NCBI GenBank assembly: GCA_016181525.1
Contig: JACOZD010000003.1
Location: 1-38,250 of the forward strand
Source: Candidatus Tayloriibacteriota bacterium
Lineage (GTDB): Bacteria > Patescibacteriota > Minisyncoccia > Phycocordibacterales > JACOZD01
Length of the DNA: 38,250 bases
Direction of reading: 5' to 3'
The position numbers and the translations under genes were made by a program. This document shows, piece after piece, positions 3,133 through 5,061 of this stretch; the stretch's first letter is position 1, and each line of letters begins with the position of its first letter. The notes below the pieces were generated by a model. That model saw only the letters and a program-made list of their open reading frames with translations. It searched no databases and was not told the DNA's origin.

Positions 3133-4080
3133 TTATGGAGTCGTCAAAGACTGAACCGTGCTTGTTGCCGAATTGCCGGCAGCATCTTTAGAATTAGCGA
3201 GAAACTGGTAAGTGGTACTTGCTGTAAGACCGGTCAGTGACACACTATGACTCAAAACCAACCCATCGGCCGATGCATGGGCAGTACCGACGGTGACTTG
3301 GAAGGGCGTGGTTGTTCCATACCAAACATCGCTGGTCGCCGGTTCATCTGTGGCCCAGGTGATAGTGGCTCCTGTTGACCCTGTAGAGCTGGCGGTCAGA
3401 TTTGAGATTGTCGGGGCAGTAACGTCACCGGCCGGCGGGGTGGTGGTAGCGGCGCCGCCGCAGCCGCCGACGGTATCGCCATGCCTAAGATGCGCTCTGA
3501 CGGCCGGCAGACCGATAACGACAGTGTGCTTAGCGGCAGGATTGCCGGGCGGGATGTGACAAATCTCCACTTTGGTCTCACCCCTGCCTCCGCCTGGAGT
3601 AGTGGTGCCGGTAATTGGAGGAGTAGTGGTGCCGTTTGGAGGAGTAGTGGTGCCGGAGACGAGCAAGTTAATCCTTCTGATTATATCTGCCGGCAGAGGA
3701 GCATCATCATTAGTCAGAAAAATGACGACAAGCCGGGCTCGAGTGGCCGGCCCGACGATGCCGATAGTATCAATGCCATGCTTCTTTTGGAATTTCTTGA
3801 CCGCTTTCTCGGTTAGAGGGCCGAACCGGCCGGTAATGATGGCCTCCGGATAGACCTCTGGGTCTCTAGCCAGAAGCTCCTGCAGAAGTCTTACGTCCTC
3901 GCCCGACATACCGAAGCGAAGCGTCCTCTCGAGCTTTTTATCAGTTACGTTCACTATCTGTCTTGGCTTCTGCTCTTCGATTGGCGGTTTCTTCCTCCGA
4001 TGAAAGAAGGCCTCGGCCTGATACGCGCCGAGGAACATCGAGGTGGCTAGAAGCGTCAAAAATAATGTTTTTTTATTCAT
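3133..4080 (-). CDS. Secreted peptidoglycan-binding / fibronectin-III protein
   Basis: The 315-aa protein starts with a clear signal peptide (Lys-rich N-terminus, hydrophobic core LFLTLLATSMFLGA, AEA cleavage region). Residues about 50-120 form a PG_binding_1-type repeat (LRFGMSGEDVRLLQELLA, TGRFGPLTEKAVKKFQKKHGI, GIVGPATRARL). A Thr/Pro linker follows with three GTTTPP-like units, then a module with the pattern VEICHIPPGNP, HTVVIG, HLRHGD and GGCG that is frequent in bacterial surface proteins. A second Thr/Pro linker leads to a C-terminal fibronectin type III domain (about 225-315: APTISNLTASST, WATDEPATSDVWYG, HSVSLTGL). No cell-wall sorting motif is visible. The likely role is envelope-associated binding; no catalytic domain is seen. 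Confidence 0.85.
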   Translation of the reverse strand: MNKKTLFLTLLATSMFLGAYQAEAFFHRRKKPPIEEQKPRQIVNVTDKKLERTLRFGMSGEDVRLLQELLARDPEVYPEAIITGRFGPLTEKAVKKFQKKHGIDTIGIVGPATRARLVVIFLTNDDAPLPADIIRRINLLVSGTTTPPNGTTTPPITGTTTPGGGRGETKVEICHIPPGNPAAKHTVVIGLPAVRAHLRHGDTVGGCGGAATTTPPAGDVTAPTISNLTASSTGSTGATITWATDEPATSDVWYGTTTPFQVTVGTAHASADGLVLSHSVSLTGLTASTTYQFLANSKDAAGNSATSTVQSLTTP

Positions 4081-4188
4081 AAGATAGCGGTTTATCTTGT
4101 AAATCAGACCGTAAATAAAGTCCTTCGACCTTTATATATTACCAGACGGGGCGATGCGGTTAATTCTTACGAAGTGGATAACTTGATG

Positions 4189-4216
4189 TTGACTTAGAGG
4201 CGAAGACGGCTATCAT
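4189..4216 (+). promoter_or_regulatory. Promoter of the structured RNA
   Basis: TTGACT (4189-4194), 16-nt spacer, TATCAT (4211-4216). This predicts a transcript start at about 4222-4225, immediately before the first paired base of the RNA at 4226. Confidence 0.75.
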
Positions 4217-4222
4217 TCTCCC

Positions 4223-4422
4223 GAGCGCTGTTTGCATGGGTGGGAGACTGTGAAGTTGTGCCTTGGGGCGGCAATGGAGTCGGAAAAACGTTTCCTCTCC
4301 TTTCTCGCAACAATAACGTTGAGACAGGCTAAGAAGGAGTGGTTAAGACCACCATTATCGTCAAGTCAGCGAAAGAAGTGCCCCGGCCGGTTTCTGTTCT
4401 GTTTTGGCGGCCGGGGTTTTTT
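4223..4422 (+). ncRNA. ~200-nt structured non-coding RNA upstream of raiA
   Basis: Promoter and terminator define a ~200-nt transcript without a credible ORF. By hand it folds into a closed multi-branch structure. Ends: CGCTG (4226-4230) with CAGCG (4367-4371), TTG (4232-4234) with CAA (4362-4364), ATGGgTGG (4236-4243) with CCACCAT (4349-4355). Inner helices: CTGT (4248-4251) with ACAG (4324-4327); hairpin TTGtGCC/GGCggCAA (4256-4274); hairpin GGA..GGAAA/TTTCC..TCC (4276-4300); hairpin near 4304-4323 (CTC..AAC/GTT..GAG). The segment GTGGT-TAAG-ACCAC (4339-4352) can form its own hairpin, which competes with the outer helix. It lacks hallmarks of tmRNA, RNase P RNA and SRP RNA. Size, branching and position beside raiA resemble the published raiA RNA motif of Firmicutes and Actinobacteria, but I cannot test its consensus here. 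Confidence 0.65.
4381..4422 (+). terminator. Intrinsic terminator of the structured RNA
   Basis: Perfect 9-bp GC stem CCCCGGCCG/CGGCCGGGG (4381-4389 and 4408-4416) with an 18-nt loop, followed by six T. Confidence 0.92.
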
Positions 4423-4513
4423 AATTGGTCTTTACAAATACTCCACCCGATGCTCCTTTTAGGTTTTGAAGTGTTTCGTTTTCATCGGTTGTTATAAAAT
4501 ATGGGCGCGAGGT

Positions 4514-4939
4514 ATGCGAGTAAACACACCCAAAGCCACCAATATCACCTTAACCGACGATATTCTCCGTTATCTCGGCAAGAAACTGGAGGGGTTTCGG
4601 CGTTTGGTGCCTTCTCAAGACGAGAGCGTTCTTCTCGATGTGGAGCTCGCTAGGACCACTCTCCATCACCGAGCCGGCGAGATTTACCGGGCTGAGCTGA
4701 CCTTGACCATGAGCGGCAGGCAACTCCGGAGCGAGGCCGAGCGGGCGGACATCTACAGCGCCATTGACGCGGCCAAGGATGAACTGGCCGAGAATCTTAG
4801 TTCCAGCAAAGATAAAAAAATGAGTCTCCTGCGCCGGAGCGGGGTGCAGATTAAAAACTTTCTTAAGGGTATTTACGAGCTCCGGCCGCGGCGGTGGCTC
4901 CGGATGCCGCGTTTTCCTCGCCGCTCTAGCCGCAAGTAG
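4514..4939 (+). CDS. raiA: Ribosome hibernation promoting factor / RaiA (S30AE family)
   Basis: This 141-aa protein binds the 30S decoding channel and silences or dimerises ribosomes in resting cells. The S30AE fold is recognised from MRVNTPKATNITLTDDILRY at the start, then LDVELARTTLHHRAGEIYRAELTL, SEAERADIYSAIDAAKDELA and the typical end of the short form (KDKKMSLLRRSG, IKNFLKGI), with a basic tail rich in Arg. It lacks the long C-terminal dimerisation domain of long HPF. The ATG at 4514 follows a weak GAGG-type site and lies 13 nt after a TAAAAT -10 box (4495-4500). It has its own promoter after the terminator of the structured RNA, so that RNA is not simply its leader. Confidence 0.93.
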   Translation: MRVNTPKATNITLTDDILRYLGKKLEGFRRLVPSQDESVLLDVELARTTLHHRAGEIYRAELTLTMSGRQLRSEAERADIYSAIDAAKDELAENLSSSKDKKMSLLRRSGVQIKNFLKGIYELRPRRWLRMPRFPRRSSRK

Positions 4940-4954
4940 GGTGAAAGACAGAGG

Positions 4955-5061
4955 AAACTAAGAACCTGCGTTTTTTCAGCTGCAGCATGTTTGCCTGCTG
5001 GCAAGTTGCCCTGCTCGCGCCGTCGCGCCGCGCAAGGCCTCAAAACGCGGGTTCTTAGTTT
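4955..5061. repeat. 20-bp inverted repeat with GC-rich inner repeat (copy B), between convergent genes
   Basis: Arms at 4955-4974 and 5042-5061 pair over 20 bp with one G-T wobble. Between them 4985-5040 is copy B of the dispersed repeat, with the inner hairpin TTGCC-TGCT-GGCAA. The right arm overlaps the fmt stop codon and is followed by T's. It probably works as a terminator for the convergent raiA and fmt transcripts, but it is much longer than an ordinary one. Confidence 0.7.

Follow-up and report, generated by a model that had tools for sequence, protein, structure and literature searches.

The window, that is, the whole stretch of DNA analysed, comprises 38,250 nt of contig JACOZD010000003.1 (GCA_016181525.1) of Candidatus Tayloriibacteriota bacterium, an ultra-small member of the CPR. 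The following features were recognized at the locus considered here:

4189-4216, plus strand: sigma-70-type promoter TTGACT-16-TATCAT (match 10/12), with a predicted transcription start at ~4223
4223-4422, plus strand: predicted free-standing RNA gene of ~200 nt, composed of a folded domain (4226-4371) and a terminator
4226-4238, plus strand: 5' strand of the closing stem P1 (predicted folds)
4231-4282, plus strand: L1-stalk module, i.e. H76 5' strand, H77 and H78 (model R1, alignment A1, blastn to 23S rRNA of relatives)
4239-4243, plus strand: H76 5' strand GGUGG, whose partner is CCACC at 4349-4353 (family covariation, fold energy)
4246-4281, plus strand: H77 (4246-4249/4278-4281) around H78 (4256-4262/4267-4274, one bulge, loop UUGG) (fold, A1, covariation)
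4282-4339, plus strand: insertion between H77 and the H76 3' strand, with hairpins 4282-4295 and 4297-4339 (predicted fold)
4339-4352, plus strand: alternative local hairpin GUGGU-UAAG-ACCAC, exclusive with the H76 pairing (predicted folds)
4349-4353, plus strand: H76 3' strand CCACC (fold energy, family covariation)
4359-4371, plus strand: 3' strand of P1 (predicted folds)
4381-4422, plus strand: intrinsic terminator (9-bp GC stem, 18-nt loop, six T)
4514-4939, plus strand: raiA, a separate downstream gene encoding an S30AE ribosome hibernation factor (PF02482, E 5.6e-11)

By chance, 0.7 promoter-like sites are expected in the region, as compared with TTGACT-16-TATCAT found at 4189-4216. The terminator stem CCCCGGCCG/CGGCCGGGG (4381-4389/4408-4416) is followed by TTTTTT, and thus both the promoter and the strong terminator postulated in the original prediction are present. 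The minimum-energy fold of 4223-4378 is a single closed multibranch domain, consisting of P1, an H77/H78-like arm and three more hairpins, in agreement with the closed multi-helix structure proposed earlier. The pairs of P1, taken from predicted folds of one sequence, are 4226-4230/4367-4371, 4231-4234/4362-4365 and 4236-4238/4359-4361. The two mutually exclusive folds foreseen for this RNA were both recovered, with energies of -43.4 kcal/mol for the local hairpin 4339-4352 and -42.6 kcal/mol for the pairing 4239-4243/4349-4353. In the latter, the H76 3' strand sits past a 67-nt insertion; hairpin insertions at the joint of H77 and the H76 3' strand also occur in two related loci (L215 and L293). 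The fold energy was not above chance when compared with shuffled sequences (z = -0.43 without and -0.98 with the terminator), so thermodynamic stability was dropped as support for the RNA and a comparison among relatives was needed. The predicted architecture of the window RNA (P1 and two inserted hairpins) should be regarded as a model built on one sequence, the relatives compared being of order level or wider. One segment, CTCCTTTCT (4297-4305), resembles the 16S anti-SD; it pairs inside a predicted hairpin and was therefore taken as a coincidence.

The raiA gene has an apparent promoter of its own (TATAAAAT, 4493-4500) and a ribosome-binding site. Since it also lies behind the terminator, the region 4223-4422 is considered a separate gene, and a raiA leader was rejected in view of this apparent promoter and the unconserved upstream regions. 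The RNA had originally been considered a possible raiA motif, which was described from Bacillota and Actinomycetota and has 8 helices and two pseudoknots (PMC11751092, PMC11706538). Rfam covariance models run on 4000-4560 gave nothing meaningful even at E<=10, with RF03072 unmatched; the models of 6S, SRP, RNase P and tmRNA, named for comparison in the same prediction, as well as that of T-box, gave no match either, and these identities were rejected. The stalk motif described below was not found upstream of raiA in the examined loci of ~30 relatives, and the adjacency to raiA, earlier read as a meaningful arrangement, is unconserved, the homologous RNAs adjoining many different genes. That the window RNA belongs, as a divergent form, to the raiA-motif family, as its length of ~200 nt and its position beside raiA could suggest, is hardly credible, given the irrelevance of all Rfam matches at E<=10, a fold unlike that of the motif and the location of the relatives' RNAs away from raiA. 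Between raiA and fmt, which are convergent, there is a long inverted repeat, CTAAGAACC...GGTTCTTAG (window 4958-5060).

The nature of the RNA core was revealed by comparison with rRNA. When 4180-4430 was compared by blastn with 60 relatives, each representing one family, the best matches all fell at 4234-4282 and lay inside 23S rRNA genes (E 4e-6). The segment 4231-4282 corresponds to the full L1-stalk head of 23S rRNA (H77-H78 and the H76 5' strand), with 57.7 bits and E ~1e-13 in covariance model R1, which was built from 14 sequences including the window stalk itself; the blastn E value of 4e-6 is independent of this model. Alignment A1 showed that the window module has retained the loops GGUGGGAGACU, UGAAG and UGGAGUC, and with them the sequence core of interdigitated T-loops as in the L1 stalk (strings GGGAG, UGAAG and GGAG), while the window H78 differs in sequence from every 23S H78 and still pairs. 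The original prediction is supported as to a structured RNA with promoter and terminator and unsupported as to the raiA motif; the L1-stalk module had gone unrecognized.

The module is not located in a 23S gene, and Rfam found no LSU rRNA match in the window. The genome's own 23S rRNA is encoded on another contig (C19) and has a different stalk, GGCGG/CCGC versus GGUGG/CCACC in the window module, which shows that the latter is distinct from that gene and has not been copied from it recently. In the 23S gene itself (L175, G000:C19:31000-37800), a group I intron and another insertion, ~2 kb long, interrupt the sequence ahead of the L1-stalk region. The homology to 23S, together with the finding of nothing convincing in the window RNA beyond the 52-nt module, might be explained by a decaying, functionless fragment of 23S (a pseudogene or recombination scar). 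We consider this very improbable, because the homology covers the stalk domain and not an arbitrary piece, the window copy keeps the conserved loops and has an H78 that is altered yet paired, and the free-standing copies share covariation, terminators and a T-arm at a fixed distance (see below).

Model R1 was applied to 397 genomes of the order, and doubtful hits were sorted by blastn of their flanks against 23S. Stalks outside 23S were detected in 13 other order genomes (loci L211, L212, L214, L215, L217, L218, L219, L220, L221, L225, L276, L286, L293 and L301; genome G295 has two). The first pass took few candidates per genome, so the order counts are lower bounds; at least about 14 of the 397 genomes carry a free-standing stalk RNA, which suggests a patchy distribution. 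A strict stalk pattern over the same 397 genomes matched the window only, the more diverged relatives being then found by the covariance model, and in a pattern scan of genome contigs with 23S exclusion, the matches listed were all 23S, the exclusion position shifting between phyla. A second model (R2), used over 380 genomes of the phylum, revealed seven more RNAs in other classes (L310, L314, L317, L327, L336, L337 and L340); its score does not split RNAs with a T-arm from 23S, and every locus was therefore checked against 23S by blastn. None of the family RNAs of the order or of other classes gave an Rfam match above cut-off.

The 15 order stalks, the window copy included, were cut by hand to the stalk portion and placed in the 23S register (alignment A3), where 89.6% of cells are standard pairs. 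The stalk module shows the covariation among homologues that the original prediction proposed as a check. Of its 16 pairs, 13 changed on both sides, and 65 cells are doubly changed, versus 15.6±3.7 in shuffles and 9-12 in slid registers. For instance, H76 occurs as GGUGG/CCACC, ACCGA/UCGGU, AGGCU/GGCCU, GGCGG/CCGCC and GAUAG/CUAUC. An intrinsic terminator lies within 260 nt downstream in 17 of 22 members, as compared with 19 of 109 random places. What defines the proposed family is an L1-stalk module that lies outside 23S and shows covariation in H76, H77 and H78; the window RNA has such a module. Very probably it is a genuine member of a new, free-standing L1-stalk RNA family, which supports the earlier statement that the RNA, if not of the raiA motif, would be a new class. 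No description of an L1-stalk RNA family was found in the literature searched (L1-stalk mimics, CPR non-coding RNAs and L1-stalk small RNAs), in which few subscription journals were covered. The free-standing stalks may have arisen repeatedly and independently from 23S. A viral origin was rejected, since there was no phage or plasmid match and the strict stalk pattern was absent from viral contigs; three T-arm+GGYGGGAG matches in the viral search were chance hits in tRNA arrays. Some MAGs contain two different 23S stalks (L206, L207, L208, L209, L213 and L216; e.g. in G128, G170, G092 and G339), a probable sign of strain mixture, contamination or divergence among rRNA copies.

Most members of the family also carry a canonical tRNA T-loop hairpin (UUCRANN, 5-bp stem), the start of which precedes the stalk by 46-55 nt. 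Among 14 free-standing stalks that had been identified irrespective of the T-arm, 8 showed a strict T-arm pattern at -40 to -60, versus 0 of 74 23S stalks and 0.67% of shuffles (P 1e-14). The T-arm is absent from the window copy and from L211, L217, L218 and L220, and some of the T-arm RNAs (L314, L327 and L336) are closed by a long P1. The window copy being among those without a T-arm, T-arm and stalk-only RNAs are only presumed to form one family. Covariation, terminators and the recurrent T-arm at a fixed distance show that free-standing stalk RNAs are under selection. The T-arm raised the question of tmRNA, which was ruled out as the identity of these relatives by the regular tmRNA located elsewhere in genomes with the RNA (e.g. 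C12:6597-6978); ARAGORN detected no tRNA, tmRNA or tag frame in the T-arm RNAs, and in L327 only the T-arm stub of the tmRNA model was matched, below cut-off.

The family members have no fixed neighbours. The window RNA is flanked by raiA and a gene for a peptidoglycan-binding protein, and elsewhere the adjoining genes encode an S1-domain protein, a translational GTPase, bL33/tRNA-Trp, bL27 and bL9, two aminoacyl-tRNA synthetases, TrmD, a topoisomerase, CorA and others (bL33 and bL27 were identified from the translated sequence). Such variable neighbourhoods favour a trans-acting RNA. The stalk-only RNA of L217 (1501-1673) is located between rpmG (bL33) and tRNA-Trp, with which it may be co-transcribed, and the second copy of genome G295 (L219, T-arm type) between the genes of two aminoacyl-tRNA synthetases, one of class II (D/K/N type) and one of class I (W/Y type). 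In L218, a stalk RNA (1440-1610) is placed between rpmA (bL27) and rplI (bL9). In L276/L308 (G011:C12), the tmRNA gene is followed after ~260 nt by the stalk RNA, encoded on the same strand. We conclude from these sequence comparisons that the family probably represents a new trans-acting structured RNA family of Patescibacteria (CPR).

The ribosomal L1 stalk is bound by protein uL1. We found uL1 to be absent from 60/60 relatives and from all 14 order members, and present in 7/7 members outside the class; the search recovered 14/14 positive controls, and the own genome is 82% complete. Loss of L1 in 'OD1-L1' has already been published (PMC5220378). As uL1 is absent from every order genome tested, it cannot be the ligand here, and the occurrence of the family both without uL1 (in the order) and with it (in other classes) indicates that the RNA does not depend on this protein. 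Operators of uL1 in mRNA mimic the 23S site (PMC10931766), and by analogy the RNA could serve as decoy or operator for a protein that binds the L1 stalk, a role now taken by a different stalk-binding factor. The T-arm relatives of other classes, which occur where uL1 is present, and the few members lying by translation genes (L217 before tRNA-Trp, L218 between rpmA and rplI) would fit this explanation. Nevertheless, we regard it as unlikely, considering that uL1 is missing from the window genome and all 60 relatives tested, that the described operators are an irregular stem-loop whereas the family RNAs carry H78 too, and that the neighbours are other than rplK-rplA. Another possibility is a ribosome-associated RNA, whose stalk (with the T-arm in relatives) would dock at the 50S E site/L1-stalk region and modulate hibernation or tRNA release, partly replacing uL1. 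The loss of uL1 in the order and the raiA gene beside the window copy are in line with such a role, which the unconserved raiA adjacency and the presence of the family in bacteria with uL1 again make rather unlikely.

In the L1 stalk, RNase P and T-box, interdigitated T-loops bind the tRNA elbow (PMC4810234; PMC5309774). The loops conserved in the stalk RNA are those that build interdigitated T-loops, and by this analogy recognition of a tRNA elbow or T-loop appears to be its likeliest mechanism. In this model, a closed domain would hold the core, an L1-stalk head (H76-H77-H78) that is autonomous and folds as in the ribosome; its two interdigitated T-loops would offer a flat face on which the elbow or T-loop of a tRNA can stack. 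Translation or hibernation might be tuned in this manner: the RNA may serve to hold or to sense tRNA, probably in its deacylated form, or it may rival the stalk of the ribosome itself at the E site. In the window copy, the H76 pairing and the local hairpin, being of near-equal energy, could act as an open/closed switch. Taken as a whole, the statement that 4223-4422 encodes a trans-acting RNA with an autonomous L1-stalk head, acting by a tRNA-elbow/T-loop mechanism, is put forward tentatively, with a little less than an even chance of being right. More speculative, and in our opinion rather doubtful, is its extension to a phylum-wide CPR class that exported the L1-stalk head, often with a T-arm, as a free tRNA-elbow gripper kept after the loss of uL1, i.e. 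a fourth interdigitated-T-loop RNA. Three RNA classes with interdigitated T-loops on the tRNA elbow have been described, and more were predicted (PMC4810234); if the proposal is true, the free-standing family built from the stalk is one of them. Its retention in bacteria lacking uL1 makes the role of a stalk RNA without the protein testable, and bears on how 'OD1-L1' bacteria run ribosomes without uL1.

Among known systems, (i) the raiA motif RNA/ModT (RF03072) is likewise structured, of ~200 nt and adjacent to raiA, but its model does not match the window RNA, and the motif is described from other phyla with 8 helices and two pseudoknots; (ii) tmRNA resembles the T-arm members in being structured, T-arm-bearing and several hundred nt long, whereas the genomes with stalk RNAs have a regular tmRNA besides and ARAGORN finds no tag frame in the T-arm RNAs; (iii) the uL1 operators in L11-L1 mRNA share the mimicry of L1-stalk rRNA outside rRNA, but are cis leaders binding uL1, while the window RNA does not precede rplK or rplA, comes from a genome without uL1 and also carries H78; (iv) T-box Stem I and the RNase P specificity domain presumably share the tRNA-elbow-stacking device, but gave no Rfam match and use another scaffold, the window motif being of the 23S type; and (v) the 23S L1 stalk (H76-H78) has the same core loops (GGGAG/UGAAG/UGGAG), covarying H77 and H78 pairs and order of elements. 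In contrast to the 23S stalk, the window RNA is a free-standing gene with promoter and terminator, no H75/H79 context and hairpin insertions at the H76/H77 joint, and many of its relatives have a T-arm hairpin.
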